Part shown: positions 17,802 through 47,149 of the stretch, piece after piece | Layout of the letters: every line of letters starts with the position of its first letter | Numbering within the stretch: the first letter of the stretch is position 1 | DNA from: Scolanthus callimorphus | Lineage: Eukaryota; Cnidaria; Anthozoa; Actiniaria; Edwardsiidae | Assembly: GCA_033964015.1 (NCBI GenBank) | Contig: CM066922.1 | Span: forward strand, 25,538,961 to 25,602,960 | Direction of reading: 5' to 3' | DNA: 64,000 nucleotides | Translations under genes and position numbers: made by a program | The notes under the pieces: model-generated | The model's database searches: none | What the model was told of the DNA's origin: nothing | What the model saw: only the letters and a program-made list of their open reading frames with translations

Positions 17802-20800
17802 ATGGAGGACCGAGATGTTGGGGTGAGTGGTTTATTATGCTGAACTGACTCATCGCGTCTTCGCCTCATCACAAACACAACTCGGTGCGTTGTTGCAGTG
17901 TTTGTTTGCTCAGACGCTGTGAACCAGTGAAGCGGTTTATGATCTATTGAATTATACAGTAAACTGGTTTTAGCCTGCAGGAGCTCCGTAAACTTTCCTA
18001 CACGCTTCTTTCATTGATATCTCAAGATTTGTCTAACCTTCTGCATTTAAGTTATACCGAGCTGAAGCCATGCAACAGCCATGAACTTGAACATTATTTT
18101 TTTTTGTAATTGTAGTATGAGAAAACGAAAGAAGCCATAATAACCGACTTTGTGTCCAGGAGATCAAAGTTTTGTTTGTCGCTGAAAATTATGTTATAGA
18201 AAGGATCATATCTCATTCCAGAACTTCATTTTATAATCTTTTTTCTTCTTACAGTAGTTTAAGTGCCCTTTCTAAAAATTAAGTTTTGTTATCCTGAGTT
18301 TTGTAATTGACATTGTTGTTATTTTTAACCTTTTGTATTTGTTAATACCAAATCGATTGTTCCATTCTTATCTTGAATTATCACTCGGCATAAGTGGACA
18401 AAACTGCAAAGCCATTGATGGGCTTACTGACCAGGGTTACCTTTTGTTTAGATTAAACAGAGAGACATTTTGCAGAGTTTCCTTTTTTACCATTGTGTGG
18501 TTCCAAAAAATATCCATACCCCCCCGACGGAAGGGTGTTGAAAAGTGACCCCCCCCCCAACCCCCCCACCCATCCCCACCCCTCTGGAATTTCCGAAGAA
18601 AATACAGTATTTGTATGGAAAAGATCAGGTAAATTGACCCTCCCACCCCTCCGGAATTTCCAATCCCTTCCGTAGGGGGGGTATGGATAATTTCTGGAAA
18701 CACACATTAGCTGGCCAGGGACGGATCCAGCATTTTGGAAAACGGGAAGCATTTCCTGTTTTGAAGAGCCAGATTTGTCAATAGGGCTACTAAACCTACA
18801 GTCTTGGACTACATTTTGCCATTTCAAACCATTTTTGCATTGCAAAGGGGGTGTGTCCGCACCCAAAGCACCACCCCTGAATCCGCCAATGCTGGCTCCA
18901 GATAGGGACTTTGTATGAGGAAGGATATCTATTTATTTATTCCACTCTTATCATGAGATATTGCCTCTAGCGATTCAAATGAGAATCAAGTTATTTTTCA
19001 ACTCTTATTTACCATATGGTCCATGTCATCAACATGTTCAAAAATGTTGCGGAAATTTTGTAGACCATGTATTTTCATATTGGTGTCCTCCAAGAAATGT
19101 TCAGAATCCTTTTACTTTAACTGTAGCTCGTAAGAAAAAAGATAATTAAGAAGATTTAAGTGAAGATTTCAGACTACAGTCATGACAATGAAAACCACTG
19201 GAAATGTGTTTCATTTACATGCATTCAACAAACATGTATTCAACAAACAATGTACTGGTATTCAAAACAGTAATCATTTTCTGAAACACAATCAATCACC
19301 TTAAAACATTAGTCAACTCTGAGGAATTCAGATAATTTCATACCCTGAACTGCTAGAAGCTCACATCAGTTAATCGTCTGAATAAATTAAAAAAAATAAA
19401 ATAAATTGTAACATGTTTAATAGCGCTTAATTCCATAAGCCTCTAAGCACTTTACAAATTGCGAGATGTCCGATCTCTAAGATGCGGACTGCAGTTGTAC
19501 AGTGCAGTTACAATCTCGGATAAGGACGTTAAACCGTAGGTCCCGTCTCTCACATGCACTACACTAACCTGAACCAGAGGGACGTTAAAGAACCACGGGG
19601 ACGTCGGAAGTTGCCCATCCTCAGTGTAGGACTTACATACTAACCCACTACACTGACAAGGGAGCCTCGTCATGTGGAGCCTCGCTCTGTGAGGATTTCC
19701 CGGCCCTCGGGCAAAAGCTAGTAAATAAATAAATGAGTCAGGGGTCCATTCATATATTGTTTAAGAGAGTTCTGTCACTGAGCATTTGGCCACCAACTTG
19801 CGTGGACTTGCGATGACTTGTGTTCACTTGCGTCCACTTTGAACATGTTCAAATTAATGTGCAAGACCAGGTTATTTAACATCCCTCATGATTAGCTTTG
19901 GTGTTGTGTATAAAATCCTGATGAACCCAATGGAGGTGTCATCTTTGAGGTGAAAAAAATTGGGCCACCCTTTGCCATAGGCCAAATTTTAAGGGGGTCC
20001 CAGAAGGTGCCAGCATCAGGTGCATTGTGATTCTCAACATAAAACAATCTAAAGCCCTGGCCAAACGAAACACAAGTTCGCACAAGTTTTGCTACTTGCA
20101 TTGACTTGCGCTCATTTGGCTACCAACTTGCGTGGACTTGCGATGACTTGTGTTCACTTGCATCCACTTTGAACATGTTCAAATTTTTGTGCAACTTGCG
20201 ACAACTTGCGTCTCGTTTGGCCACCACGTCACAAGTGTACGCAAGTTGATGCAAGTTTCCAATTTTCTTCGTTTTCCAAAATAACGAAATATTATGACCC
20301 AAACAAGTCATGAAAATGTTGTTTATATTTCTAGCTGTTATTTACAAGACAGTGGGTGAGATTATTCATTTCTTTCATATTTTTAACAAGAAAAACCCCA
20401 GCTTGAGCGTGCGCTCTGTGTTCGAAAGTGGTGTGATCATGTCATCATTACAAGCGCAAAAGCACCAAAAAACTCAACTTGCATCAAAACTTGCATCTCG
20501 TTTGGCCACCTCAACACAAGTCAGTGCAAGTCACAACTTGCATGAACTTGCGTTTCGTTTGGCCAGGGCTTAAAACACTCCTGCTAGCAAGCAAATCAGT
20601 TCATTTTGCTCATTTTAATCCAATGATGTTGTTCCAGTTAAACCCAGCAGGCTTGGGCGCATACTCACCACACAGGAGTAGCATCAGATCTGTGGCCAAC
20701 AGTTCTATTTCATCATATCAAGACTTCCCTCATGTCACCAAGTATCGCGCTGAGGGGCTGGCCACACCCAGGGGTAGTGCCCCACAAACAAACAGCAGAG

Positions 20801-23800
20801 GTCCGTTGATCATTGTTGATTTTATTCTGTCCTTTAATTGATTAGCCTCAACTCATTTCTGTCCAAGAACCCATCCACAGCTTAAAATGCCCACTCTGAG
20901 ACTATTCCCAAGCACATCGAGAAACCTTTCCCACCCTTCCACTTGTGTGTGGGACAATAGTCTTTGTCCATCCTACCCCACCCCAAGTGTGAGATGGAAT
21001 TGTTTTTCCTACCCTTTCCAAGTGTGAGACAAAATGATTTCCTAACCCTTCCCCCCAAGTGTGAGATGAAAGTTTTTCCTACCCTTCCTCCCAAGTGTGA
21101 GATGCAAGGTTTTTCACCCTTCCTCCCAAGTGTGAGATGCAAGGTTTTCCACCCTACCCCTATGTGTTAGATGGACCTTTTTCATTCTACCCCAAGCAAT
21201 AGAAAAAGGTTTGACTCATCCTTACTCCCTCTTTGTTATAAATCAGCTGTGATATCAGCATTAAAGGGGCTACAAGAAAAGATCCGCAATTTAGAACTTG
21301 AAAGGACTGAGGCAGAAGAGAACCTGAAGAGACTGGCAGTGGAGTCTAAGCATTACAAAGAAGTGTTACAGAAAGAGAACACTGTTAGAAGCATCAACAC
21401 TGGTGTTATCAGCAAACAGAATGAAGGTAATCGAATATGCCTTTTTTAATAAGATTTTTTATTTATTTTCAATAATTATTACTAATAATTACAACACATA
21501 GGGCACAACAGGCAAAAAAAAAAGACAAAAAAGTGTGCACTCTAGTTTTCTAGTTTTTTTGTAATTTCAGAGCTGCAAACTGACCTGCATTCAGCAGAGG
21601 CCAGATGCAACTTACTTGAGAAACAGCTTGATTACATGCGTAAGATGGTCCATTCAGCCGAGAATGATCGCGACACAGCAGTACAGAGGTCGGCCGTGCT
21701 AGCTCAGCAGATGACACAGCACTCAGCAGATGAAATCAAGGGGCAGCTGGGCAAACTAACGGGACTAGAGAGGGAACATATGAAGCTTACTGCTTCACAC
21801 TCACTCGCTGAGGTGAGGTTTTTATCCTGGCTTGTACCCTCTAAGAAGAGAGACACTGCCTGATGTCAACCTCAGGAAACGTCTTCATATAGTCAGGGCC
21901 CGTGGTTTGATGCGGTTTTTTTTCTGAAATTATGCGCTAAAAATTCTAAATTATGCGCTAAAAATACGAAATTATGCGGGATTGCGCAATATTTTTTAAC
22001 AAATGCCGTAACATATTTTGCTCTTTTCGCCTGTTTTGTCAGGGGCACCCAACGATCATTTTCGGTAAAATAGTATCTGTTCGGATGGTGGAATGAGAGC
22101 TAAAACTTTCGCTTCAGAATTTCAAGCTTTAACTTTCGTATATAGATCATAAGATCCCCTGGATTTTTCGAATTGCACAAAAACCGTAAATTTTACTAAT
22201 TTTTGGGTGACTTTTGCCGTTAAAAAGGTCACCTAAAATTTTCGGATAGAGTTTTTCCCCTACCATTTTCGGAAGACTTGATTTCAATCCCTAAAATTTT
22301 CGCAATCCAAAACTTTCAGCTATGAAATCCGAACAGATATAAAATTTGTAGGGATTAAAAATACCCAGTTTACAGTCATTTGTGTGCTCAGCAACGACTT
22401 ATAATGGCATTCTGAGCTGTTTTACGATATTGTCTCGTTGGGTGCCCCTGTTTTGTTACATGGATATAGCTGCTACTTAACTTTAACAACTTTTGTTTGT
22501 CTATAAAATGCTCTGTGATGAGTTCCAATCGCCTCGCTTTACTCACGTTATGACGCTACGTTTTCTTCCAGGGAAGCCCGTGTTTTCGCTGTTAATAAAG
22601 CTTATTACTTTCTTACAAAAAAGCGTTACAAACTACCGGTAACTTCCGTTACACGGTAGTAAAGATTATTAAGTTTGGTCTTCTTTCGTTTACTTGTCTC
22701 AGACCAAGGCGCACTTTTTTCATACGGCAAGGATCGTAACAACGCACTCCTATCCAACCATGAACTGAACGATCACAAGAGCTAAACGGTCACAAGAGCT
22801 ATCATTACGATCTCTCATTATCACAAACATCGTTGCGCTTGTTTGCCGTCGTTCTGCACGTAATTATCAAAATAAATCCTCATCGCGAGAGCGATCTGTC
22901 GGAGGTAGTGTAAGAGCTTTTATAAAACCAAAAACGGGCAACGTAATTCTGTCAGTGTTTTGTTTTTGTTATCGAGGGAGCTGTTTATGTGCCTTGCTTT
23001 TACTTGTAAAATATCCAAAGCGCAAGCGTGTTTGAATCTATCTTGCTCAGCCAATTAGGCACGTTTTATTGCTTTTCGATATCAGTTCCCAGCGCTCCTT
23101 GTTATTCTCATTTCTATTGAGTTGTTTTGACGTTGGACAGACGATTTCAGAAGAAATGTATCACTTTGTGAGAACAAATAGGAAAGAAAGTTTGAAATTC
23201 ACCAAGTAATGATGCCTTTTTGATGTTTTTCACAAAAGTTTGGGAAATTATGCGGGATTTGACGGATTATGCGCATTATGCGGAAAAAGCCAAATTATGC
23301 GTTTCCGCACCAGCGCATCAAACCACGGGCCCTGTATAGTTTATAAACATGATAATACATAGAAAGAGGGAGGGTCTTCAAATTGTCAAATTTGGAGTGA
23401 ATCGTGTAAATATTGATCAAGATAAGCCATTTCAAAAAGCATGACCACATTCAAACACGTCAAGGTACAAATCTTTACCATATTTGGAAGCGGGTTTTGA
23501 CAATAAAAAAATCGCAAAAGCCAATCGTGTGCTAAATGCATAATAATTAGTTCTAAACACAGCCCATAATTTCCTCGCTTCATGCTTTCCATTGTTTCCC
23601 AAATATGGTCACGATTTGTACCGACCATTGGTCATGCTTGTTACGTTGTTACACGTTTCAACTGACTTTGTTTCTGGTTCCATCTGATCACTTTAGTTTT
23701 TCTTTGCTTTAATCTTGCCACAATTTTGTTATTTCGATGTTGAGCTTGTAACAACAATCCTTTCGTCAGAAGGCTCTCAGTAGTGCGTAAGTCATCTCAA

Positions 23801-26800
23801 TTTTGTCCCTTTGTTTGGTAAATCAGGGTAAAATTAGAGACTTGGAAGAAAGACTTCGAGATGAAGCACATCACCGTAAACGATTAGAAGACAAGACTGC
23901 TGAGGTGAGAATCAAGGTTGGTTCTAGAAAGCCAGCAACGTTTATGGAAATTCCAATTTCCTCAGGTAATGCCATCTAAAATGTGTTGTTCAGTAATTGT
24001 AACATATTTTTGGTTCAAATATATTTTTTGCAGCTACAGACAGCAGCGGAAACCAATAGAATATTAATGAATATGGCATCACCACCATCTCCCAAACCCA
24101 AAAAGAAAAAGAAAAAAGTAAGAGTATTTAGTAAAATACACTCCTTCCGGCGGATTGGATATCGGCAGATAATGTCCAAGGATAAGAAATGGTACGAAAA
24201 ATGAACAGTTGAGCTACGAAGTTTTGAGGACCATTTCTCATCCGCCGATATACCAGTGAGCCAACAAGGGGTTTGACATTCAAATTTCTAGAGCGGATTT
24301 CAGATGAGTCATTCGCACTTACTTTGCGTACGTTTTGTTCAGAAGTGGGTTTTACTTTGCGCTTGGTTTGACACAGTCGTGTGAAATCGGCTTTTACAGC
24401 TAAAACCGTTGCATCGCACCATTGAAATGAAATGAAACTCCTGTCTCGCCTAGTGCAGTCAACTGGATTCCCTCTGAACTAAACCAGACAACGTCGCGAC
24501 AGAAAGCCAGGCAACTGCATGGGCGAAACAAGGCAAGAATGTGATAGGCTCACAAGATTTGATTGGCGGAACAGCAAAGTTTTGAACACGCGGGTCGCGA
24601 TGGAAAGATTTTAGCTGTAAAGGAAAGACTCAGTTTTGTTAGTATTATCCAGTATGTAACTAATGACTCTTTGCTCTCTGTTTTCAGTTAAAACCCAAAG
24701 TAAAGCGCCCTCCAGCGACGACATACCCTGCAGGGCATTATCATCTAAACCTTGGAACTATACCATTTGTTGTTGGCAAGGTGAGGCTGCATTTCCAAAC
24801 CCTTTTGAAAATTACAGGCACAAAACAAAAGCCGAAAGGTAGTTGAAGAGTTGTAATAAACCCGAGACCTATGGGACTCGATGTTTCCTGCTCTTGGTTT
24901 ATGTACAAAGTACTCCAAACACGACCTCAAAAACGAGCGACGTTAAAAACGTAACCAAAATACACGACTGCTAATACGTTGAATACCTGCCAACCTAAGT
25001 TTCCAGGTTTATAAGATTTACCCAAGTTTCAAGTTTTATTAAGATTTTTTAGACAGATTACAAAATATTACCGGCTGATCCGCAAAAAGTATAAACTAGT
25101 CGAGGCGGATCAGCCGTGCTTCTTTGAAAATAAATTAAATAGCTAAATAAATATAAATAATTTTGATAACAAGAGAAAAGGAGACAAGACCTAATTATAC
25201 AGAAAGCAACGAACAGTATAACATCATCAACATAGGTGATTTTTTTCCAAGAACAACATCAGTGGCACTATAAAAATCAAGTAAAATGTATATTCTTTTT
25301 CATATGTTGTAAAATTTATTGAAATTCAAGGTAGGGGTCTGATTCCTCTAGGATATCGATTGGTTCACAGAACTGAAAGGGCGGCATTGAATCTACGATT
25401 GGCACATTAGCACTATAACAGCGACTAGAAGGGGAGAAAATTCCAGACTGCGTTACTTAGCGCATCGTCGAAATGAACGTGAAAAAAAACACATGATTAT
25501 GAGGTTGATTTTTATATATTTGTGTCTCGTCTTTCCCTAGTCGGCCACCAAGTCACACTCAGTGGGTGCTAACATCCAACAAGCAATCCACTTACTAAAA
25601 GGGCACAACCCTCCGCTATGTGACGCAGTCTCTCGCGTCCAAAGACAGCACAGGCGGCCCAGCAGTACGGCTAGTTCTAGTGACTCCGAGTCAGGCTTCG
25701 AGGAATTGCTGCATGGGTTGCAAGATGAATTTGGACACATGAGCTTGTAAGTAAAGATCGCCTTGGACATAGATGAGTTCAAGCTGTCAGGTGCATTATG
25801 GGTAATCTTGTAATTCTCTGGTGCCAGACAAAACCGGATGTCCCAGATTATCCGGCTTGTCCATGTATGGTGATCGTCTTTGTCGGTTAGGCAGTTTCAA
25901 AATGGCGAGTGTGAATATCGGCCAATCAGAATCGGCCTATGATTGTCTGCCGCCAGAGCCTACGACGACAAACAGCAATGTGTATGAATGAACACTCTAA
26001 AATAGTCCGAACCAACAAAAAAAAGACCTAGAACCCCCACCACCTGCGCCCTTACCAGAGCGTTCTACACAAGTGTACTTCTGCAACCTACAACCATGTG
26101 GGACACTTGTGCATGTCAACTAACTATTGCAGTGTATTAGGGATAATCACTAAAATAAGTGCATTTGCAATTAAGCCTGGTGCACATTTGCGACATAACG
26201 ACATAAGAAAAATACCACAAAAAATAACTAAGATTGCTTTGGTGAAGTAATCTAATGATGATCCATGGGAAATACTGATTCTTTCAGTTGTTTTCCCGTG
26301 CTTTTTTCGTTACAACAAAACGTCGTTATGTCGCTAGTGTGCACCGGGCATTAGGGATAATCCCTATAATCTGTTCTTTACAACATGTTGGACGGAAATG
26401 TAATTCGAATCTTAGAGGAAATAGCATTCTCTGGCGTAAGAACCCGGCGTAAGAACTACTCCCATAGGGCACCATCGTGTTCGGTTCATATTTCATCATG
26501 ATACGATTCGTTGTACAAAACAAAGAAGCTTTGTAACGCAACTCGTGAACAATACACAGGTTCTTACACCGGGTTAAGACCAGCATTCCTATCCGAATTA
26601 TCTCCAACCACAGCAGCGATTATCAATAGTGCAACCTGGAGCGTCTATTGGCAGTAGCAAACATAATTTCTTGAGGAAACCTGTCATTTTAGCTTCGTGG
26701 ACGATTCCCGCTATAATGTATGCGAGCGCTGTATGTTGGTTCATTTGGCGACGAAAATGCAAAGGACGCTCACGCTGCATCCTGGTAGTTTTGACTCGAA

Positions 26801-27661
26801 GATCAAGGGCCCGGTTTGCAAAATGTGAACCCGCATTTACTACTCTTCCTAGGAGACCGTTTCACCTCTCGCGTGATCACCTTTTTTGTACCACGTGATG
26901 AGTTGCTCATGTACCACGTGATCAATGTTTGTGGGCGAAAACTTTGAGCGTTTGGTCTGCTACATTGTTGTGCTGCTTTCCAACAAAGTCTACGCCGAAA
27001 ACGGTTGATCACGTGGTACATAAGCTACCCATCACGTGGTACATAAAAAGGTGATCACGCGATGAATTTCAGAACAGCCGCCGGCGGGCTGAAATAGTAA
27101 ACCGAGAGGTGTAACGGTCTACTGGGAAGAGTAGTATAGTGTCCGCTTTGTCAGGACATATCTCATTCTTGGTGGTATTCGGGTTGCCCCGTCTCATGTC
27201 AAACAGTTTCGTTTTTGTCAAAACAATAACTGAAACAAAACGTTCGATTGATTTACTTTCCCAGTGAACATCAGGAACTAGCGCGACAGATCAACGAGAC
27301 GCTTGACCCACGACTACGAGAGGACCTTGAGCGCGAACTGGAACAACTAGTGGCGCGAATGGAGGCGAAAGGCGAACAAATTGCCATGGTGAAACGCCAA
27401 CAGGGCAAGGTGAAAGGCCAGCCAAAGAAACGAACGCGCCCGCGCTCAGCGGTCAGGCCCAAAAGTGCAAGCGCCGTCATACCATCCAGGGGCGGTCACG
27501 TGGAGATCATCACGACCGTCAAGACTAAGGGTTCAAAAACGGAAGTGGACAATAGAGTTGAGAAGCGAGCAGGAGTTAGGGCGGGGGAGAAATTAAAGGT
27601 TTTAAAAGGAATGCAGAATTTACAGAGCTCGTTAACTAAAGATGATTTACATTGGGATTGA
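17802..27661 (+). CDS. CEP57: CEP57/CEP57L1-family centrosomal protein, complete, nine exons
   Basis: Centrosomal, microtubule-binding coiled-coil protein; the family (CEP57, also called translokin, and CEP57L1) acts in centriole and pericentriolar organisation. Exons: 17802-17822 (MEDRDVG), 20638-20800, 21247-21426, 21571-21812, 23827-23904, 24034-24117, 24688-24780, 25541-25746, 27265-27661. All have GT/AG borders and compatible phases. They sum to 1464 nt, or 487 aa, close to human CEP57 (500 aa). Residues about 62-245 form the heptad-rich centrosome-localising coiled coil ([31 protein letters not shown]). A lysine-rich linker and GTIPFVVGK follow. The C-terminal microtubule-binding helix is [15 protein letters not shown] and [11 protein letters not shown]. 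The protein ends like the human one (LHWD). The tiny first exon rests only on its ATG, donor and phase and is the weakest part. Introns contain several transposons. The last three exons are duplicated downstream. Confidence 0.9.
18495..18705. mobile_element. MITE, 211 bp, C/G-rich ends
   Basis: GTGTGGTTCCA plus ATATCCATACCCCCC faces GGGGGGGTATGGATA plus TGGAAACACAC; the centre also pairs (CCCTTCCG / CGGAAGGG). In CEP57 intron 1. Confidence 0.75.
19450..19640 (+). repeat. Second copy of the dispersed repeat seen at 1-150
   Basis: Contains AAGGACGTTAAACCGTAGG, then GGACGTTAAAGAACCAC, the reverse-complement order of the first copy. It lacks a clear B box. Located in CEP57 intron 1. Confidence 0.5.
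20051..20572. mobile_element. MITE with AAGCCCTGGCCAAACG ends
   Basis: AAGCCCTGGCCAAACGAAAC faces GTTTCGTTTGGCCAGGGCTT. The interior is rich in ACTTGCG words. A related 75-bp piece sits at 19786-19860 and a diverged piece at 30420-30525. It ends 65 bp before CEP57 exon 2. Confidence 0.8.
20925..21190. repeat. Minisatellite, about 36-bp unit, seven copies
   Basis: Units centred on CCAAGTGTGAGATG then TTTTTCCTACCCTTCC, in the intron between CEP57 exons 2 and 3. Confidence 0.85.
21894..23334. mobile_element. 1.44-kb TIR transposon with 6-bp target duplication
   Basis: Ends CAGGGCCCGTGGTTTGATGC / GCATCAAACCACGGGCCCTG, flanked by TATAGT at 21888-21893 and 23335-23340. Subterminal AATTATGCG words repeat near both ends. 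No transposase ORF. It sits in the intron between CEP57 exons 4 and 5 and hosts another insertion. Confidence 0.88.
22040..22450. mobile_element. 411-bp MITE nested in the 21894-23334 element
   Basis: Ends CAGGGGCACCCAACGA / TCGTTGGGTGCCCCTG, flanked by TTTTGT on both sides (22034-22039, 22451-22456). A truncated relative is at 58032-58075. Confidence 0.88.
24291..24385. mobile_element. Partial GAGCGG-family MITE
   Basis: TA then GAGCGGATTTCAGATGA starts it; an ACAGTCGTGTGAAATCGG end is degraded. It abuts the next MITE. Confidence 0.5.
24393..24621. mobile_element. MITE, 229 bp
   Basis: Ends TTTACAGCTAAAA / TTTTAGCTGTAAA. The internal CGACAGAAAGCC and GATTTGATTGGCGG match the layout of the element at 3376-3668. 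It ends 45 bp before the duplication border. Confidence 0.65.
26173..26352. mobile_element. MITE, GTGCAC/CGACATAACGAC family (unit A)
   Basis: AAGCCTGGTGCACATTTGCG and CGACATAACGAC are inverted at the other end (GTCGTTATGTCG, GCACCGGGCATT). The unit B copy is at about 32629-32809. Confidence 0.75.
26841..27133. mobile_element. MITE with TACTCTTCCTAGGAGACCG ends (unit A)
   Basis: Inverted ends TACTCTTCCTAGGAGACCG / CGGTCTACTGGGAAGAGTA. The inner CGCGTGATCACC and TACCACGTGAT are also palindromically arranged. The unit B copy is at 33297-33561, with internal changes. Confidence 0.75.
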
Positions 27662-27750
27662 CGTAGGAGTGTTTGTAAATATTTCGATGAGTGTATATCT
27701 CCGGGGAGCGAAACATGGTTGCAGAACGATTCTGATGCGCTTGGGTTTGC

Positions 27751-27974
27751 CTAATGCCCGGTGTACACTAGCGACATAAGGACGTTATGTTGCAAAGGAT
27801 AAAGCATGGAAAAATAATTGAAATAATCGAAAATTTCCATGGATCATCATTAGACTACATCATCAAGGCAGTCTTCTGTGATTTTTGTGCACTTCATCTT
27901 TTTGAAACCACTAAATTTTGCTCGCGTGATATATTTTCTTATCTCGTTATGTCGCAAGTGTGCACCAGGCTTAA
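27751..27974. mobile_element. Second MITE of the CGACATAACG family (unit A)
   Basis: AATGCCCGGTGTACACTAGC faces CAAGTGTGCACCAGGCTT. The unit B copy is at about 34179-34408. It lies about 90 bp after the CEP57 stop and may overlap the 3' UTR. Confidence 0.75.
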
Positions 27975-28621
27975 AGACTGGTTTTCATATGTCGGGAACC
28001 GTTGGGGATGGTGGGGGGATGGTTGTTGCCCATCCATCCACGACAGTTCCCGACATACGAAAACACAGCTTCGCGGATGGTCGGCGATCGTTTCTATTCC
28101 CATCGCATCCCATTCAATCGCCGATGTCGCCGCCATTTCCCGATATGCGTTTTCATAAGAATTGGATTTACGGGGAAACCACGAGTGTGAACAGCATAAA
28201 GGCAGGGGTGGATCTAGGAATTTCAGAAAGGGATGGTGAAAACATGGAAGAAAATTTTCAAATTACAGTAAACGTATGGGGAAATCTCCCGAGAAGGGGG
28301 GGGGGGGGGGGGGGCGAAAAATTATATTTGTGAAAAGAAAACAATTCATAGTTCCGATCAAACAATGAAGCCATTTCACGCTATCTGGAGATACCAATCA
28401 GAGTTAGAAAGATTCTCCCATGGGAACTGATCGTGTCCCACAAACAGTATTTCAGGACTTCCGAAATCAGTCCGATGTGCAGCACTTTTTTGGCTTTTAT
28501 GACAGTATAAACTGAGATGATCCGAAGATAAAGATATCTGGTGAACCTAAGCGGGATCGGAATATTTTTGGAGGTTTTTAAAGTAAAACCCTAGTTTGTT
28601 TGTGGGACATAACAACAGTAA

Positions 28622-28948
28622 CTATGGCTTTGAATGACAGGTCGGAACTATGAATAACAGAGATGGCTGACTAATGCTCTTGGACGGTGTAACTCCATAT
28701 CGAATGAACCATGTTTTGCTTCCTACATGTAAATTATTACGGTAGTAGCTTCTAGTATCTCTATATACATCTTTATCTATTTCATAATAAAGGTTCAGGA
28801 GTGGCCTCATAACATTGTACCTGCCTTCACTAAACAGGGGAAATTTTCCTGGTCGGAAATTTGTCGACGCTGACAAATGAATGCGGGCGCATCCAAGAGG
28901 GCAGGCTTGTGAGTTTGCGCAAACGTCGCATTCCTGGCAAATTTTCAT
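28622..28948 (-). CDS. Hypothetical Cys-rich ORF inside unit A (doubtful)
   Basis: 108 codons starting MKICQECDVCANSQACPLGC. A possible donor (GGCAG|GTACAAT) lies after about 42 codons, so it could be a first exon. The same ORF exists in unit B (34556-34945). The two copies differ at about seven residues within 97, mostly non-silent, which argues against constraint. Not recognised; may be chance. Confidence 0.15.
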   Translation of the reverse strand: MKICQECDVCANSQACPLGCARIHLSASTNFRPGKFPLFSEGRYNVMRPLLNLYYEIDKDVYRDTRSYYRNNLHVGSKTWFIRYGVTPSKSISQPSLLFIVPTCHSKP

Positions 28949-29216
28949 GCTCCGGGTTAACTAAATCTCTGTTTTATTGCATTGGGACGGATTAATTTTT
29001 GCGGTCAAGACCGCCTAACAAAAGAAGTTCCGTATGATAGAACGCCAGGAGTAGACAGAGTTTGATTTCATGCAAATATACCAATACAATTTTTTCAGCC
29101 GACGAAACTAGCAAAAATAGTTCTGTTTCAAAAATGCAAGAATGAATGTATTCCGCCGCATTGTAAAGACAAAGGTTATGGGTTGCCTAGAAATTTAATT
29201 CAGAGTACGCTTTGAA

Positions 29217-29567
29217 ACATTCCCGAACCCAGAGCTCCCCGGCTCGTCGCCTCGCGGGGGAGGCTCGACCTCGTCCCCAGGGTCTTTCGGTCGTTTTTCA
29301 AAATGGCTTTGTTTCGAGATGGTCATGTGACTCAGCCTCCCCCAGGGTCTTCTCCCGAGCTAACCGCCATTTTGAAAACGACCAAAGACCCTTGGAACGA
29401 GGTTGGGGAGGCTCTGGTGACAGCCAATGACGCATGCGCGAGATTTAATACAGAGCCGCTGACAGAAAGATATTTCAACGCTTAAAATCAACCAATCAGC
29501 GACGGCCCTCAAATGGATGTCCCCAGAGCCTCCCCTGCGAGCTGGGGAGCTCTCGGTACGAGAATGG
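29217..29567. mobile_element. Foldback element (unit A)
   Basis: GAGCTCCCCGGCTCG and GCGGGGGAGGCTC mirror GAGCCTCCCCTGCGAGC and GGGGAGCTCTCGGT. The unit B copy is at about 35205-35592. Confidence 0.6.
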
Positions 29568-30211
29568 CTTTGAAAACACAATAAAGTCAAATTCGCAGAA
29601 TTATGGAAATCATGCAACGTTTACCTCCCGAGTAGTTCTCGTAAACATGAACCGTATAGTAAAGTGTCTGTTGATGTCGTCTTAGGCCAAGCACAAACGT
29701 CGAACTACTGTAGAACTAGTTTCCTTTTCCAAAAGATGCCGCTTCAATAGACTTCGCGATAGAAAACTTTGTTTGTATTGGTACGGCGCGACTCTGGCCC
29801 GTGTCATCAAACAGCACGCACAATTTGTGTAGAAGTGTTTTCTTTATTCAAATCTACAGTCATTCTACATTATCTTTCTACGTCTGACTAAATAGTTGGT
29901 TATCATTACCATAGATGCAAACCCAACAAGTCAAGAAAGGAAAATTTAGCGGTAGAAATGTTTGAGGAAAAATGAAATTTTTAGCAGGAGGTAAGGACAA
30001 GAAACCAGGGGCCGGTTCCTGAAAGGTTGGATAAAGTTATCCATGGATAAAAGTTATCTGTTGTATAGGACTTGTTCAGGATTTATCCGTTGGATAAGCG
30101 TTTATCTAAAGATAACTCTTAACTGACCTTCTAGGAACCGACCCCAGGAGAACCCCAGGAGACTCCCGTCAAAAGCGGGTGAGTTCGCATCTCTGCATTA
30201 CCTAGAGTAGC

Positions 30212-30351
30212 GCCCCCGGGGGGGGGGGGGGGACTCCCAGGATGATCGTCGGAAATTTTCAGTTTCACCCCTAAAGATATTATTCTTATTCCCTTAAGAT
30301 ACCTGGAACCCGAATTTTCCGACGACACTTTATTGGGAGTCCCCCCTGGGG
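30212..30351. mobile_element. Small MITE with C/G homopolymer end
   Basis: CCCCCGGGG run then ACTCCCA at the left faces TGGGAGTCCCCCCTGGGG at the right. GTCGGAAATTTTC and GAATTTTCCGAC are also inverted. Confidence 0.6.
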
Positions 30352-30559
30352 TTTAAGTGTGCTGTGTTCAAAAGTAGGGTGATCATATCATCAGCACGTG
30401 GAAGGGAGGAAAATGAAGTTGTTTATAATATTTTGCATCTCGTTTGGCTACGACAGTCCAAGTTTCTGCAAGTCTGCACAAGTCTAATCTTGGATCAACT
30501 TGAATCTCGTTTGTTCCAGGCCTTAGTATTGGACCTGAAGCTTACGGTTCACTTTCTGG

Positions 30560-31308
30560 TCAACTTGTTTTGTGTCGAGACTTTTGAAGATGAGCCTGTA
30601 GGCCCTTATTGAATGCAAATGTTTTGTCACATTGAAGACAGCGATGTAACTTTTCAACATGCAACTGTGAATGCCTTTTAACTGCTCCTTTGCGTCGGAA
30701 TCTCTTGCCACATACAGAACATTCGAATGGCTTTTCGTCGCTGTGAACCAGCTGATGTCTTTTGAGGTTGTCGTTTCTGGCAAACATTTTATCGCATGCA
30801 GGACATTTGTATGTTTTGATTCTTGACACTTGTACATGGTTCCAGTTATGCTCATCAAAAGCCCGTTCATTGTCAAACTGCTTGTCGCATTTTTCACATT
30901 TAAAATGGCTGCCACTGACCATGGAATGACTTGCAGATCTCAACCGCTGCAGTCCCTGAGCAATCGGTACCACCCTCCCTTGGGTGACAAGAGTTGCCCC
31001 ACCCTGGCTCTGTCTGTCTCTACCTACCCCACTCATCTGCTGAGAGTCAGCACTCATGCCCCCCTGACTCTGATTATCATCCCTCTCTCTATCTTCAGTT
31101 CGGCACACATTTGCACTTGAACTCTGAACCATGCCCTGGGAACTCATGCTTTGCATACATACTCCACTTAGGACTAAACGTTCAGAACTGCACGTTGCTG
31201 TATCATGACCAGGTAACTTTAGATGTGTTCCATTTTTGCCACCTATGTTATCAATTTCCATAACTTCTTCTAAAGGTGCTCCACTATTAGTATCCTCGCT
31301 GCAAGTTG
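30560..31308 (-). pseudogene. 5'-truncated C2H2 zinc-finger gene copy at the duplication junction
   Basis: This is the 3' part of the large exon of the neighbouring zinc-finger gene, cut at 31308 where duplicated CEP57 intron sequence begins. All four C2H2 fingers and the stop remain open. The N-terminal region, the ATG exon and the promoter are absent. Compared with the intact gene at 36962-38767, it has about 14 amino-acid differences, some inside fingers (TCDKT to ACDKM), and only a few silent ones. That pattern suggests relaxed constraint. An internal ATG at 31261 could start a 233-aa protein if the region were transcribed. Confidence 0.8.
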
Positions 31309-31330
31309 ACTCTTTGCTCTCTGTTTTCAG

Positions 31331-34089
31331 TTAAAACCCAAAGTAAAGCGCCCTCCAGCGACGACATACCCTGCTGGGCATTATCATCTAAACCTTGGAA
31401 CTATACCATTTGTTGTTGGCAAGGTGAGGCTGCATTTCCAAACCCTTTTGAAAATTACAGGCACAAAACAAAAGCCGAAAGGTAGTTGAAGAGTTGTAAT
31501 AAACCCGAGACCTATGGGATTCGATGTTTCCTGCTCTTGGTTTATATCCGCATGTAAAAAGTACTCCAAACACGACCTCAAAAACGAGCGACGTTAAAAG
31601 CGTAACCAAAATACACGACTTTGCTAATACGTTGAATACCTGCCAACCCAAGTTTCAAGTTTTATAAAGATTTTTTAGACAGATTACAAAATATTACCGG
31701 CTGATCCGCAAATAGTATAAACTAGTCGAGGCGGATCAGCCGTGCAATGCTTATTCTTTTTCATATGTTGTAAAATTTGTTGAAAGTGAAGGTAGGAGTC
31801 TGATTCCTCTAGGATATCGATTGGTTCACAGAACTGAAAGGGCGGCATTGAATCTACGATTGGCACATTAGCACTATAACAGCGACTAGAAGGGGAGAAA
31901 ATTCCAGACTGCGTTCATTTCGTCGAAATGAACGTGAAAAAAAAAACATGATTATGAGGTTGATTTTTATATATTTGTGTCTCGTCTTTCCCTAGTCGGC
32001 CACCAAGTCACATTCAGTGGGCGCTAACATCCAACAAGCAATCCACTTACTAAAGGGACACAACCCTCCGCTATGTGACGCAGTCTCTCGCGTCCAAAGA
32101 CAGCACAGGCGGCCCAGCAGTACGGCTAGTTCTAGTGACTCCGAGTCAGGCTTCGAGGAATTGCTGCATGGGTTGCAAGATGAATTTGGACACATGAGCT
32201 TGTAAGTAAAGATCGCCTTGGACATAGATGAGTTCAAGCTGTCAGGTGCATTATGGGTAATCTTGTAATTCTCTGGTGCCAGACAAAACCGGATGTCCCA
32301 GATTATCCGGCTTGTCCATGTATGGTGATCGTCTTTGTCGGTTAGGCAGTTTCAAAATGGCGAGTGTGAATATCGGCCAATCAGAATCGGCCTATGATTG
32401 TCTGCCGCCAGAGCCTACGACGACAAACAGCAATGTGTATGAATGAACACTCTAAAATAGTCCGAACCAACAAAAAAAAAGACCCAGAACCCCCACCACC
32501 TGCGCCCTTTCCAGAGCGTTCTACACAAGTGTACTACTGCAACCTACAACCATGTGGGACACTTGTGCATGTCAACTAACTATTGCAGTGTATTAGGGAT
32601 AATCACTAAAATAAGTGCATTTGCAATTAAGCCTGGTGCACACTTGCGACATAACGACATAAGAAAAATACCACAAAAAATAACTAAGATTGCTTTGGAT
32701 GAAGTAATCTAATGATGATCCATGGGAAATACTGATTCTTTCAATTATTTTCCCGTGCTTTTTTCGTTACAACAACGTCGTTATGTCGCTAGTGTACACC
32801 GGGCATTAAGGATAATCCCTATAATCTGTTCTTTACAACATGTTGGACGGAAATGTAATTCGAATCTTAGAGGAAATAGCATTCTCTGGCGTAAGAACCC
32901 GGCGTAAGAACTACTCCCATAGGACACCATCGTGTTCGGTTCATATTTCATCATGATACGATTCGTTGTACAAAACAAAAGGAGCTTTGTAACGCAACTC
33001 GTGAACAATACACAGGTTCTTATACCGGGTTAAGACCAGCATTCCTATCCGAATTATCTCCAACCACAGCAGCGATTATCAATAGTGCAACCTGGAGCGT
33101 CTATTGGCAGTAGCAAACATAATTTCTTGAGGAAACCTGTCATTTTAGCTTCGTGGACGATTCCCGCTATAATGTATGCGACCGCTGTATGTTGGTTCAT
33201 TTGGCGACGAAAATGCAAAGGACGCTCACGCTGCATCCTGGTAGTTTTGACTCGAAGATCAAGGGCCCAGTTTGCAAAATGTGAACCCGCATTTACTACT
33301 CTTCCTAGGAGACCGTTTCACCTCTCGCGTGATCACCTTTCTTGCACCACCTGATGAGTTGCTTATGTACCACGTGATCAATGTTTGTAGCGGACCAAAC
33401 GCTCAAAGTTTACGCCCAACATTGTTGTGCTGCTTCCCAAAAAATTCTACGCCCAAAGCGGTTAATCACGTGGTACATAAAAAGGTGATCACGCGATTAA
33501 TTTGAGACAGCCGCCGGCGGGCTGAAAAACCGAGAGGTGTAACGGTCTACTGGGAAGGGTAGTATAGTGTCCGCTTTGTCAGGACATATCTCATTCTTGG
33601 TGGTATTCGGGTTGCCCCGTCTCATATCAAACACTTTCGTTTTTGTCAAAACAATAACTGAAACAAAGCGTTCAATTGATTTACTTTTCCAGTGAACATC
33701 AAGAACTAGCACGACAGATCAACGAGACACTTGACCCACGACTACGAGAGGACCTTGAGCGCGAACTGGAACAACTAGTGGCGCGAATGGAGGCGAAAGG
33801 CGAACAAATTGCCATGGTGAAACGCCAACAGGACAAGGTGAAAGGCCAGCCAAAGAAACGAACGCGCCCGCGCTCCGCGGTGAGGCCCAAAAGTGCAAGC
33901 GCCGTCATTCCGTCTAGGGGCGGTCACGTGGAGATCATCACGACCGTCAAGACTAAGGGTTCAAAAACGGAAGTGGACAATAGAGTTGAGAAACGAGCAG
34001 GAGTTAGGGCGGGGGAGAAATTAAAGGTTTTAAAAGGAATGCAGAATTTACAGAGCTCGTTAACTAAAGATGATTTACATTGGGATTGA
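31331..34089 (+). CDS. Second copy of the last three CEP57 exons
   Basis: Exons 31331-31423, 31996-32201 and 33693-34089 repeat CEP57 exons 7-9 with identical lengths (93, 206 and 397 nt), phases and splice signals. They encode GTIPFVVGK, the Ser-rich segment and the whole microtubule-binding C-terminus up to the stop. The upstream six exons are not duplicated. By eye, the three exons differ from their partners at 15 sites: 14 silent and one Gly-to-Asp change (QQGK to QQDK). Exon 6 of the parent ends in phase 0 and exon 7' starts in phase 0, so the parent transcript could splice into this set. Alternatives are an unexpressed fragment or a chimeric transcript. Confidence 0.8.
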
Positions 34090-36114
34090 CATAGGAATGT
34101 TTGTAAATATTTCGATGAGTGTATATCTCTGGGGAGCGAAACATGGTTGCAGAACGATCTGAGCTGCTTGGGTTTGCCTAATGCCCGGTGCACATTAACG
34201 ACATAACGACATAAGAACTTTATGTTGCTAAGAAAAAAGCATGGAAAAATAATTGAAATAATCAAAAATTTCCATGGATCATCATTAGACTACATCACCA
34301 AAGCAGTCTTATGTGATTTTTGTGCACTTCATCTTTTTGAAACCACTAAATTTTGTCCGCGTGATATATTTTCTTATTTTGTTATGTCGCAAGTGTGCAC
34401 CAGGTTCAAAGACTGTTTTTCATATGTTGTTGCCCATCCATCCCCGAAAGTTCCCGACATATGAAACCACAGCTTCGCGGATGGTCGGCGATCGTTTCTA
34501 TTTTTCCTATCGCATCCCATCCAATCGCCGACGCCGCCATTTCCCGATATGCGTTTCATAAGATTTGGATTGACGGGGAAACCACTAGTGTGAACAGCAT
34601 AAAGGCAGGTGGGGGGGGGAGCGAAAAATTATATTTGTAAAATGAAAATAATAACAGAAATGGCTGACTCATGCTCTTCAACGGTGTAACTCCATATCGA
34701 ATGAACCATGTTTTGCTTCCTACATGTAAATTATTACGATAGTAGCTTCTAGTATCTCTATATACATCTTTATCTATTTCATAATAAAGGTTCAGGAGTG
34801 GCCTCATAACATTGTACTTGCCTTCACTAAACAGGGGACATTTTCCTGGTCGGAAATTTGTCGACGCTGACAAATTAATGCGGGCGCATCCAAGAGTGCA
34901 GGCTTGTGAGTTTGCGCAAACGTCGCATTCCTGGCAAGTTTTCATGCTCCGGGTTAACTAAATCTCTGTTTTATTACACTGGGACAGATTAATTTTTGCG
35001 GTCAAGACCGCCTAACAAAAGAAGTTCCGTATGATAGAACGCCAGGAGTAGACAGAGTTTGATTTCATGAAAATATACCAATACAATTTTTTCAGCCGAC
35101 GAAACTAGCAAAAATAGTTCTGTTTCAATGAATGTATTCCGCCGCAGTAAGACAAAGGTTATGGGTTGCCTAGAAATTTATTTCAGAGTACGCTTTGAAA
35201 CATTCCCGAACCAAGAGCTCGTCGCCTCGCGGGGGAGGCTCAACCTCGTCCCCAGGGTCTTCTCGGTCGTTTTTCAAAATGGCTGAGTCACATGACCACT
35301 GTTTGAAAACATGGGAACGAGGTTTGCCCTTTGTTTCGAGATGGTCATGTGACTCAGCCTCCCCAGGGTCTTCTCCCGAGCTAACCACCATTTTGAAAAC
35401 GACCGAGAAGACCCTGGGAACGAGGTTGGGGGAGGCTCTGGTGACAGCCACTGACGCATGCGCGAGATTTAATACAGAGCTGCTGAGAGAAAGACATTTC
35501 AACACGCATAATCAACCGATCAGCGACGGCCCTCAAATGGATGTCCCCAGAGCCTCCCCTGCGAGCTGGTGAGCTCTCGGTACGAGAATGGCTTTGAAAA
35601 CACAAAGTCAAATTCGCAGAATTATGGAAATCATGCAACGTTCACATCCCGAGTAGTTCTCGTAAACATGAACCGTATAGTAAAGTGTCTGTTGATGTCG
35701 TCTTAGGCCAAGCACAAACGTCGAACTACTGTAGAACTAGTTTCCTTTTCCAAAAGATGCCGCTTCAATAGACTTTGCGATAGAAAACTTTCTATTGTTT
35801 TGTATTGGTACGGCGCGACTCTGGCCCATGTCATCAAATGCAGCACGCACAATTTGTGTAGAAGTGTTTTCTTTATTCAAATCTACAGTCATTCTACATT
35901 ATCTTTCTACGTCTGGCTAAATAGTTGGTTATCATTACCATAGATGCAAACCCAACAAGTCAAGAAAGGAAAATTTAGCGGGAGAAATGTTTGAGGAAAA
36001 ATGAAAATTTTAGCAGGAGGTAAGTACAAGGAACCAGGGGCCGGTTCCTGAAAGGTCGGATAAAGTTATCCATGGATAAAAGTTATCTGTTGTATAGGAT
36101 TTGTTCAGGATTTA

Positions 36115-36680
36115 CCTTTCTTGAAAAGAAAGGTGGTGGTTTTGCCAGGCACGGTCTATCACTAATAGACCATTAGTAGCTCAGCCAATCAGAATGCAGG
36201 ATTTGTAATAGACCATTAGTTGGTTTATACTAATTGTAATTATTATTCAGCACATCGATGCACTGCCCAAATATGGTCATTGAAACGCCAATAGCTGTCT
36301 TCTGTACATGACAGATATCCTGCGATATCCGTCGCCTGAGGGAAATATGTTGTGTTGAGCTCGTATTTAATACGCAAAAGTAAATAATTTCTCGGATTGT
36401 TTTGTGCTATCGATGTGCTGAATAATAAAACCATTATCCTTCTCGATTTTTGCAGAATATCGTCTGATTTAGACAACTCGGGACTGCGTCCCTCGTCGGC
36501 TAAGTATCAGACGATATTCTGCGCAATCTCGCAGGATAATGGTTAACTGTCCCCGGCTCACTGGCGGCGCTTTTAACCCCTAAAAGATACCATTTTCAAC
36601 ATGGCTCTCAAATTCCAGCCACGATCGCACAATACAATACCATTTTCTGGGAAAATTAGCGTTTTTTTCGTCTTATTCCC
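36115..36680. mobile_element. Unit-B-specific insert with inverted segments
   Basis: This segment replaces 30083-30290 of unit A. It contains repeated CTAATAGACCATTAG-type palindromes. CAGCACATCGATG and CGATGTGCTG form an inverted pair, and AGAATATCGTCTGAT pairs with ATCAGACGATATTCTG. It probably represents one or two foldback elements inserted after the duplication. No ORF of note. Confidence 0.5.
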
Positions 36681-36961
36681 TTAAGATACCTGGAACCCGA
36701 ATTTTCCGACGCGCACCCCCGTCCGACGACACTTTATGGGAGTCACCCGTGAGGTTTAAGTGTGCTTTGTTCAAAAGTAGGGTGATCATATCATCAGCAC
36801 GTGGAAGGGAGGAAAATGAAGTTGTTTATAATATTTTGCATCTCGTCTGGCTACGACAGTCCAAGTTTCTGCAAGTCTGCACAAGTCTAATCTTGGATCA
36901 ACTTGAATCTCGTTTGCTCAGGCCTTACTATTGGATCTGAAGCTTACGGTTCACTTTCTGG

Positions 36962-38767
36962 TCAACTTGTTTGGTGTCCAGACTTTTGAAGATGGGCCTG
37001 TAGGCCCTTATTGAATGCAAATGTTTTGTCACATTGAAGACAGCGATGTAACTTTTCAACATGCAACTGTGAATGCCTTTTAACTGCTCCTTTGCGCCGG
37101 AATCTCTTGCCACATACAGAACACTCGAATGGCTTCTCGTCGCTGTGAACCAGCTGATGTCTTTTGAGGTTGTCGTTTCTGGCAAACGTTTTATCGCATG
37201 TAGGACATGTGTATGTTTTGATTCTTGACACTTGGATATGGTTCCAGTTGTGCTCATCAAAAGCCTGTTCATTGTCAAACTGCTTGTCGCATTTTTCACA
37301 TTTAAAATGGCTGCCACTGACCAGGGAAGGACCTGCAGATCTCAGCCGCTGCAGTCCCTGAGCAATCGGTGCCACCCTCCCTTGGGTGACAAGAGTTGCC
37401 CCACCCTGGCTCTGTCTGTCTCTACCTACCCCACTCATCTGCTGAGAGTCAGCACTCATGCCCCCCTGACTCTGATTATCATCCCTCTCTCTATCTTCAG
37501 TTGGGCACACATTTGCACTTGAACTCTGAACCATGCCCTGGGAACTCATACTTTGCATACATACTCCACTTAGGACTAAACGTTCAGAACTGCACGTTGC
37601 TGTATCATGACCAGGTAACTTTAGATATGTTCCATTTTTGCCACCTATGTTATCAACTTCCATAACTTCTTCTAAAGGTGCCCCACTATTAGTATCCTCG
37701 CTGCAAGTTGCTTTTGGAGATAGCTCACTGCAACCAGACCTTGGTACCAGTAGTTCGTCATTATCCTCACTGTAAGTTGCATGTAAAGATAGCTTACCGC
37801 CACCAGGCCCTGGTACTGGCAGCTCACTGCTACACAAACTATTGTCATCCGTGATTATGACGTTTGGTGAGTCATTACTCCCCATCTCTTGCCATGTGCT
37901 ATTACTGCGTGTCTCCTTGTTACTGTCATTCTCTAACTGGGAATTACTTGCCTTAGTTTGGATTGTAGAGGAGCTTCTATTGCTACATGCAGTAGCAAAG
38001 CTCGCTCCACCAAAATGTTCAGTGTCACTTAGGATAGGGATGTTTTCAGATGTACAAATGGCCAATGCCCATCGTAGTAATGCTTCTAGAGTTTTCCTGT
38101 CTCCGACAGCATTCAGGTCAGTTTCAGTTGATGTGTTTGTCACTGTATCCCTATGGATGACATCATCGGTCTGTGTTCCTACAGAACAACATGCTACTTT
38201 CTTGCTATGGTAACTCAAGATGTCAGAAACTGTAGCCTGAAAAAAGAAAGAAGCAGGATTCTTACATAATCAAGGCTAAAAATGGTCCTGGGTCGCCCAT
38301 CTTAGCCCTGGAAATTCCGAGGGGAGGAGGTCTATCACAGCTATGGAAATTTCAAGGGGAGAAGTTGAGGACCCCTGGAAATCCTGGAAATTCCAGGGGG
38401 GAGGGACCTGTCTCAGCTGTGGAAAAGGGGGGTATTTAGGCAACCTCAAAATTCCAAGGGAGGGAGTGTTGAAATTCCAGGGGAGGGGGGTGTTGCAGGC
38501 CCCTGAAAATTCCAAGGGAGGGGAGAATCAAAGACCACAGGAAAATTCCAGGGGAGGGGGGCTTTTAAATGGTAGGGTTCTTGATTCCCCGGTGTGGAAA
38601 AAATTGTGATAAGCCAATGTTATGGGACTTTTCCTACCCTAGGCTGGGTAGCCTCCTATTACCTCCTTTTGCTGTGCACTATACTCTGTTGTGTGGTCAC
38701 TGAAATAGACAACAGTTTCTCCTGCTTTTAGTGTACAAGAGTACCCTTGGGCCACCTCTCTCTCCAT
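36962..38767 (-). CDS. Four-finger C2H2 zinc-finger protein (paralogue 1)
   Basis: Probable nuclear DNA-binding protein of unknown targets. Coding exons are 38767-38663 (105 nt, starts MEREVAQGYSCTLKAGETVV) and 38236-36962, joined in phase 0 (QQKE|ATVSDIL), giving 459 aa. The second exon has no ATG at its start; its acceptor (..ttttttcag) and the conserved partner exon define the real start. The N-terminal half is acidic and Ser/Thr-rich, with a CSVGTQT stretch. Two imperfect 23-residue repeats (ELPVPGPGGGKLSLHATYS-like) follow. The last 115 residues hold four C2H2 fingers: one atypical (CEKCDKQF), two classical, and a final one with a long His spacing. A 5' UTR exon lies near 41231-41340. 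The gene converges on CEP57. I do not recognise an orthologue. Confidence 0.85.
38305..38575. repeat. Purine-rich minisatellite
   Basis: Recurring GGAAATTCCAGGGGAGGGG with variable spacers, in the intron between the coding exons of zinc-finger paralogue 1. Confidence 0.75.
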
Positions 38768-41961: not shown

Positions 41962-42180
41962 GTTCTGTTTATTATACAAACATCAATGAAATACCAAATT
42001 CAAATTTTATTTGAGTTAAGCTTAAATATCGAGCATTCAGCAAAGGCGAGTGTGATATTTTCACATGTGAAAATAACATGATATTTTCACGTGTGAAGAT
42101 ATCAAGTTTTCGCGCGGGAGATCACCTGGTATTTCATTGGTGTTTATATAATAAATATATATATATATATATATAGCAAC

Positions 42181-42852: not shown

Positions 42853-43186
42853 TCACAATTATAGATAAAGTAGGGCAGATGTTATAATATTAGGGATAGG
42901 GAAGGCCAATGGGCATACCGCCTTAAAACTCTTATTCCTGAGGGACTTAATGACAATGACTTTTTTTATAGTCAGAATCGTCGCGCACGTAACACGTAAT
43001 GTGTTTGTTTCTTGTTTATTAGCGCGCGCTAGTTAGTTCGTTAACTCTACTTGTAGCTCGCGCAGTTTCAACTATGTTTCATATTATCACGCGTAACGCG
43101 CCATCAGCCATTCACCCTGATGAAGGCTGTCTTGTACAGTTGAAATATTGGTGGAGTCAAGATTTCAAAATTTCTCTTGTGGTGTT
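42852..43186 (+). mobile_element. Inverted copy of the Penelope-like element 3' end
   Basis: 335 bp nearly identical to the reverse complement of 42181-42514. It gives a head-to-head pair around the GIY-YIG segment. CTGATGA (43117-43123), a short stem, and GAAA (43142-43145) resemble a hammerhead core. Confidence 0.8.
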
Positions 43187-45244: not shown

Positions 45245-47149
45245 TCAACTTCTTGTGTGCCCAAACCTTTGAATATGGATCTGTAGGCTCTCATTGGATG
45301 CAAACGTTTTGTCGCATTGAAGACAGCGATGCAACTTATCAACATGTACCTGTGAATGCCTTTTAAGTGAGTCTTTGCGCGGGTATCTCTTGCCACATAC
45401 TGAGCATTCAAATGGCTTCTCCTTGGTGTGAGTAACCACATGTCTTTTGAGGTTGTCTTTCTTTACAAATGTTTTATCACATGTAGGACATTTGTATGCT
45501 TGGTTTCTTGACAGTTGTATATGATTCCAATTGTGTTGATTGTAATCCTGTTCATTGTCAAACTGCTCGTTGCATTTTTCGCATTTTAAATGATTGGCAA
45601 AGGTCATGGAATAACCCGTAGATCTCAACTGCTGCAGTCTGTGAGCAATCGGTGCCACCCTTCCTTGAGTGACAAAGGTTACTGCACCCTGGCTCTCGAT
45701 ATCACTACCTACCCCACTCATCTGCTGAGAGTCAGTGCTCAATTCCCCCTGACTCTGATTATCACTGCCCTCTCTATCTTCTCTTGGGTACATATTTCCA
45801 CTTGAACTCTGAACCATGCCCTGGGAACTCATGCTTTGCATATTACATACATGTAAGTCACTTAGGAGTAAACTTTCAGAACTGCATGTTGAAGTATCCT
45901 GACCACTTAACTTTAGATATGTTCCATTTTCGCCACCTATGCCATCAACTTCCATAACTTCTTCTAAAGGTGCCCCGATATTATCATCACTGTGAGTTGC
46001 ATATAAAGATAGGTTACCTCCACTAGGTCCTGGTACTGGCAGTTCTCCATTACCCTCGCTGCAAGTTGCATATAAAGATAGGTTACTGCCACCAGACCCT
46101 GGTACTGGTAGCTCGTCCTTATACTCACTGCACGTTGCATATAAAGATAGCTTACTGCCACCAGCCTCTGGTACTAGCAGCTCACTGCTACCCAAACTTT
46201 TGACATCTGTGATCATGACTTTTGGTGAGTCATTACTCCTCACTTCCTGCCATGTTTCGTTGTTACTAACATTTTCTAACTGGAAATTACTTGTCTTAGT
46301 TGGGATTGTAGCGGAGCTTGTATTGCTAAATGCAGTAGCAAAGCTGGCTCCAGCAAAATGTCTAGTGTCACTTGGGATAGGGTTGTTTTCAGATGTACAG
46401 ATGGCCAATGCCCATCGAAGTAATGCTTCTAGAGTTTTCCTGTCTCCCACAGCATTCAAGTCAGTTTCAGTTGATGTGTTTGTCACTGTATCCCTGCGGA
46501 TGACATCATCTTCGGTCTGTGTTCCAACAGAACAGCATGCTCCTCTGTTGCCATGGTAACTCAAGATGCCAGAAACTGTAGCCTGAAAAGTGTAAGAGGA
46601 AAATTATTAAGGAATAACTTCTCTGAAGCAGGGTTCTTACATAATAGGCTAAAAAATAAATGGTAACCCTTTTTAGTCACAAACAGCTGCAAGATTTTTA
46701 TATGCAGAGACTAACTTTTCATCTCAATTTTGCAGTCTGGTTGAATGAATGAATGTTGTTATTTGTTATTTGTTTGATTTGCTAGAGCGGACCTCTATAT
46801 ATACATGACCCCACAAGCAGCATCGCTTTAATTTATTATCGTGTTTAAATAAATATTATTGTTATCATTATTATTAACAGGTACCTATCTGGAAAAAAAC
46901 TGCATGTGTTTGCATTTTACCCCTAAAAGGTACCAGAGGCCTGATTTTAAATCATAAAAGGTACGTCAAGCACCCCTGCTGCAAAAATAGAGGAGTCCCC
47001 ACCCCCCCGGATTTTCCCCTTAAAAGCTGGGGTAGTTCAAGTACCTTATTTTGCTGTACACTAGATTCTTGTGTATGATCGCTGTAATAAACAACTGTTT
47101 CTCCTGATTTTAGTGTGCAAGAGTACCCTGGGGTCACCTCTCTCTCCAT
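45245..47149 (-). CDS. Four-finger C2H2 zinc-finger protein (paralogue 2)
   Basis: Paralogue of the gene at 36962-38767 with the same structure. The ATG exon is 47149-47045 (starts MEREVTPGYSCTLKSGETVV) and the large exon is 46582-45245, joined in phase 0 (QQNK|ATVSGIL), giving 480 aa. Residues about 169-237 are three tandem 23-aa repeats with core VPGSGGSNLSLYATCSE; the paralogue has two, which explains most of the length difference. Fingers fall at about 369-389, 400-420, 428-448 and 455-476, with Cys/His ligands intact in all four. A TGEKP-like linker (HTKEKP) joins fingers 2 and 3. A non-coding first exon with donor at 48804/48803 lies upstream and is conserved with the paralogue. Role unknown; a sequence-specific transcription factor is the family expectation. 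Confidence 0.87.

Follow-up and report, generated by a model that had tools for sequence, protein, structure and literature searches.

Two sets of exons 7-9 of CEP57 lie one behind the other on contig C12 of a 597-Mb assembly of 302 contigs, and they encode almost the same amino acids even though the second set has no upstream exons of its own. Is this second set (copy B) maintained by selection, for instance as another 3' half of the gene, or has its clean appearance been inherited from a time before it was a duplicate? We address this question within a window of 64 kb, that is, the whole stretch of DNA analyzed (C12:25538961-25602960), in which the two copies are compared with each other and with a further contig, C85, that carries the locus once. 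Positions are those of the window unless a contig is named.

Anatomy of the tandem duplication

Self-comparison and the letters at the breakpoints delimit a direct tandem duplication of ~6.5 kb, with unit A at 24664-31307 and unit B at 31308-37710; the limits in Table 1 count the letters common to both units twice. The left breakpoint is located 23-24 nt 5' of CEP57 exon 7 and the right breakpoint within the minus-strand open frame of a C2H2 zinc-finger gene. Because both breakpoints fall inside genes, two headless half-genes (ZNF-A and CEP57 exons 7B-9B) meet back to back where the units join, and a longer zinc-finger frame, ZNF-B, and a complete CEP57 (exons 1-6 with 7A-9A) are both left intact. 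The window holds 0 N letters, and there is no gap between the units. Adjacent direct copies with sharp common boundaries within genes, together with a probable second chromosome copy in the same single assembly that has the locus once between colinear flanks, place the feature among partial tandem segmental duplications. Tandem duplications that are polymorphic and give rise to gene fragments and chimeras have been described, for example, in Drosophila yakuba (PMC5460883). They match the present locus in the tandem copy, the intragenic breakpoints, the gene fragments and in being segregating rather than fixed; they differ in that no chimeric CEP57 frame is evident here and that the present case is known from the sequence of one assembly.

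Table 1. Features of the duplicated CEP57 locus, in window positions
Feature	Position	Strand	Basis or remark
Unit A of tandem duplication	24664..31308	+	Self-comparison, breakpoint letters; 2 bp (TG) common to both units at junction
Unit B of tandem duplication	31307..37710	+	Self-comparison, breakpoint letters
Unit A/unit B junction	31307..31308		Inside of antisense zinc-finger coding frame fused to CEP57 intron 6; 2-bp microhomology
CEP57 exons 1-6	17802-17822, 20638-20800, 21247-21426, 21571-21812, 23827-23904, 24034-24117 (span 17802..24117)	+	Outside duplicated unit, which begins at 24664
CEP57 exons 7A-9A	24688-24780, 25541-25746, 27265-27661 (span 24688..27661)	+	3' end running on from exons 1-6
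CEP57 exons 7B-9B	31331-31423, 31996-32201, 33693-34089 (span 31331..34089)	+	Headless second 3' end
ZNF-A	30560..31308	-	Headless C2H2 zinc-finger fragment, same breakpoint; matches only 560-1308 of longer ZNF frame; zf-C2H2 65.3 bits
ZNF-B	36962..38269	-	Longer open zinc-finger frame; 435 aa counted stop to stop
ZNF-C	45245..46603	-	Older paralogue; DNA ~81-85% identical; on both C12 and C85

The unduplicated contig

Except for indels, the 587-kb contig C85 runs colinear with C12, C85:107110-171311 corresponding to window positions -8041 to 63981. With repeat and paralogue hits set aside, the two contigs mismatch at ~0.6-3.9% in colinear segments of at least 400 bases outside the unit and at up to 4.8% in shorter ones. 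The duplicated locus is present once on C85: all nine CEP57 exons are in frame and give a 487-aa CEP57, and a single match, with a one-base deletion, covers the whole ZNF-B frame. We infer that C85 represents this animal's second haplotype and, taking it as such, the duplication is probably heterozygous in this one assembly.

Several other differences between the contigs were observed. The deletion splits the C85 zinc-finger frame (C85:142780-144086) near codon 100 relative to ZNF-B, marking either a truly broken allele or a sequence error. Window positions 21893-23721, in CEP57 intron 4 of C12, are nearly missing from C85 (62 bases there), and their inverted ends (GGGCCCGTGGTTTGATGCG) resemble those of a DNA transposon. 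Relative to both A and B, C85 also carries an insertion of ~5.8 kb (C85:135330-141115), in which a scan for open frames of at least 150 aa gave none.

CEP57 and its second 3' end

Joined together, exons 1-6 and 7A-9A form an open 487-aa frame that belongs to the CEP57 family, matching Pfam Cep57_CLD at 62-240 (203.6 bits) and Cep57_MT_bd at 332-400 (72 bits), both above the cut-off. The closest of the matches listed is CEP57 of Nematostella vectensis (P0001; 82% identity, 100% of the query covered), followed by Actinia tenebrosa at 70%; judged from this one protein, the DNA would come from an edwardsiid-like sea anemone. The Nematostella protein likewise has both Cep57 domains, and the present gene stands apart by a second 3' third, which one of two contigs carries. 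Exon 9 was matched three times in the genome, by A, B and C85. Copy B alone encodes only Cep57_MT_bd (74.7 bits, at 76-144 of the B frame).

The sequence-only reading of this locus had copy B without upstream exons and exon 6 ending in phase 0, and both points hold: the duplicated unit starts in intron 6, leaving exons 7B-9B headless, and exons 1-6 sum to 768 bases. It had further described exon lengths, phases and splice signals as all kept. This is correct for the coordinates, for the 696 coding bases in both copies, for the phases and for AG/GT at the internal boundaries, but the splice context upstream of exon 7B has changed. Because the breakpoint lies so close to exon 7, the candidate branch site CTAAT (at -25) is lost in B; a chance branch-like TTGAC, formed by the junction itself, is found at -22 of exon 7B.

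Intron 7 contains a dispersed short repeat (25040-25350 and 31660-31820) with ~50 partial matches elsewhere among those scored. The B repeat is without ~165 bases of the middle present in A, and a similar spacer is seen in several other genomic copies.

Constraint on the duplicated exons

Over the 696 coding bases of exons 7-9, A and B differ by 14 silent changes and 1 amino-acid change, exactly as counted in the sequence-only reading. With S of 163.8 and N of 529.2, this gives a dS of 0.091, a dN of 0.0019 and a dN/dS of 0.021. Across transition biases of 1 to 6, at most 1 nonsynonymous change out of 15 would be seen with a probability of 3e-8 to 1e-6 were both copies neutral, and of 1.5e-5 to 2.4e-4 were A alone constrained. 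The single replacement, a G-to-D change at position 403 of the complete protein, says little, since this column varies among aligned relatives (judged on the first 30 of 120 listed, from 679 found).

These values bear out the signal of constraint from which purifying selection on both copies had been proposed. The step from that signal to selection on B as a duplicate does not follow, because the unduplicated C85 allele is similarly diverged with a similarly low dN/dS: A and C85 differ by 17 silent and 1 replacement changes (dS 0.111; dN/dS 0.017), and B and C85 by 13 and 2 (dS 0.084; dN/dS 0.045). Exons 1-6, taken as allelic between C12 and C85, show 12 silent and 2 replacement changes (dS 0.072; dN/dS 0.047), and the A/B counts are in line with them (Fisher p 0.60). 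Judged by these counts, the A/B pattern is the ordinary allelic pattern of CEP57 in this assembly. Since C85 is about as far from A and from B as A is from B, the differences can have arisen in full-length working alleles; most simply, the low A/B dN/dS would be inherited from allelic history and is no demonstration that B works. We therefore set aside post-duplication constraint as the sole reading of the dN/dS, the comparison with C85 having made it unneeded. The lesson is that a low dN/dS between tandem copies can mislead, for in this case a maintained duplicate would have been inferred had the other haplotype been missing. Where alleles differ by several percent at silent sites, constraint on a copy should be judged against the unduplicated allele, and not against neutrality alone.

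Private changes in exons 7-9 (silent/replacement) number 9/0 in A, 5/1 in B and 8/1 in C85. The B changes do not stand out from those of A and C85 combined (Fisher p 0.45), a comparison to which six changes lend little power. Were the B branch neutral throughout, 1 replacement among 6 would have a probability of 0.004-0.014 across the same transition biases of 1 to 6, and the neutral fraction of the branch is at most 0.31-0.44. This is the pattern expected if B had long been a functional allele and only briefly a fragment, and it leaves room for selection since.

The introns had also been said to carry many more changes and indels than the exons. They do have more indels, but their divergence per site is no higher than that of silent sites: introns 7-8 differ between A and B at 64 of 2048 aligned sites (3.1%) versus 14 of ~164 synonymous sites (8.5%; Fisher p 0.0013). 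The same was observed between C12 and C85, with 12 changes at ~175 silent sites and 36 at 2898 intron sites (p 9e-6; segment 23721-26173 left out), such that CEP57 silent sites are ~3-6 times more diverged than nearby introns (C12/C85 for exons 1-6, A/B for exons 7-9). CpG-type transitions make up 6 of the 14 differences in exons 1-6, 4 of the 15 between A and B in exons 7-9, and 3 of the 64 in introns 7-8; CpG mutation accounts at best for part of the excess at silent sites.

The cut-off zinc-finger half-gene has no stop in the 249 codons compared and an A/B dN/dS of 0.44; ZNF-B and ZNF-C give 0.59 over the same stretch. Polarized against ZNF-C, 5 silent and 10 replacement changes fall on the ZNF-A branch and 3 and 4 on that of ZNF-B, with 1 of each kind not assignable. 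These are too few to tell decay from weak constraint, and we rejected the pair as a decay control.

Mosaic relations among the three sequences

The affinities of B change along its length. Of 5762 ungapped columns in the three-way alignment, 4840 remained once those near gaps or in dense mismatch had been masked, a filter that makes the most divergent stretches look less divergent than they are. B and C85 differ by 2.2-7.7% over exon 7 through intron 8, then by 2.0% in exon 9 and 6.2% just 3' of it. Within intron 8, B is nearer A (2.3%) and C85 is far from both (7.1-7.7%), with 57 sites private to C85. Just past exon 9, it is B that stands apart, with 18 of 353 sites private to it. Rightward of A-coordinate 28097, as far as the zinc-finger end, B and C85 are only 0.8-1.1% apart and A is ~3% from both (a replaced stretch, A 30086-30283, left out). 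Among the gaps, one in intron 7 is private to B and several in intron 8 are private to C85. The sharing pattern differs between left and right along B with a Fisher p of 3e-16, or 3e-4 without intron 8, values that serve as guides given that neighboring sites are non-independent. A, B and C85 thus behave as three allele-level sequences, with B a mosaic, and this fits either exchange among haplotypes or the joining of two haplotypes. Since A and B are sisters in intron 8, some A/B differences may postdate the duplication.

Origin and status of copy B

From the anatomy, the colinear unduplicated copy on C85, the similar allele-level divergence in all three comparisons and the mosaic relations of B, we consider it likely that this is a real, heterozygous partial tandem duplication of ~6.5 kb whose B differences come mostly from functional alleles, and that B is young and most likely functionless. 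A non-homologous or microhomology join would have made the duplication on one of two chromosome copies. Most of the differences now seen in B would stem from normally constrained, full-length functional alleles: units A and B would have had separate haplotypes as their sources, or else the duplicated chromosome would have recombined afterwards with single-copy alleles. B itself would be a young duplicate, most likely without a function of its own. Counting against this reading are intron 8, whose grouping of A with B stands in the way of dating the duplication, the private branch of B, which leaves room for constraint after duplication, and possible errors in C85, of which the one-base zinc-finger deletion may be an example. 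The private changes of C85 in exons 7-9 are nevertheless unlike random errors, being almost all silent.

The duplication could instead be an artefact, with alleles from one highly heterozygous animal, or from several pooled ones, stitched in tandem on C12. The divergence between C12 and C85 and the retention of a haplotig-like contig in the assembly are in keeping with this; heterotype false duplications appear where haplotypes diverge (PMC9516828), and heterozygosity in the edwardsiid E. elegans is estimated at 2.5% (PMC12053456). The locus resembles the false duplications described in PMC9516828 in its allele-level copy differences, its single scaffold and high heterozygosity, and departs from them in having no gap between the copies and a third distinct sequence on C85. 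A, B and C85 are three distinct sequences, one more than the haplotypes that a diploid can supply. Had both haplotypes of a single diploid been stitched together, A or B would be identical to C85, and neither is, so a simple two-haplotype error is disfavored provided that the assembly represents a single diploid animal; pooled animals could still mislead. The gapless join, with only 2 bp in common, is also unlike an overlap join. We regard an artefact as unlikely.

Selection on B after duplication, for instance because it is spliced to exon 6 to form an alternative 3' half or encodes a short fragment that binds microtubules, would agree with the low A/B dN/dS and the constrained private branch, with the kept frame, phase and splice dinucleotides that an alternative 3' terminal exon set should have, and with the encoded microtubule-binding domain and the branch-like site made by the junction. 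The unduplicated allele, however, is similar in both divergence and constraint and manages without copy B, and the original candidate branch site is gone. Exon 7A directly follows exon 6, A carries a stop of its own as well as two AATAAA signals (28786 and 29580), and B begins 3.7 kb beyond that stop; its use would require skipping three exons and passing both signals. In the B frame, no Met precedes codon 98, which lies within the microtubule-binding domain match. We consider selection on B very improbable on this evidence, and its use as an alternative 3' half is unsupported. The particular form of such selection in which exons 7A-9A would be skipped via the junction-created site, CEP57 thereby gaining a new isoform from a segregating duplication, seems scarcely credible.

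The strong mosaic structure along B would also be produced by an older duplication in which recurrent gene conversion, with A and single-copy alleles as donors, has kept the B copy clean. Conversion from A alone predicts near-identical exon tracts, in conflict with the 8.5% difference at silent sites; this objection covers A as donor, and other alleles could still have served. We hold such a history to be highly unlikely, and the best reading of the feature appears to be an ordinary segregating partial duplication.

Other repeats in the window

A long tandem array of ~128-bp units occupies 58338-61476 in two blocks, the units being ~85-93% alike within a block and ~72% alike between blocks. 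Two inverted pairs were also found, one at 8423-9201 and 11519-12294 (98.6% identical) and the other at 42178-42515 and 42851-43189, the latter 99.4% identical over 339 bases with 335 bases between its arms.
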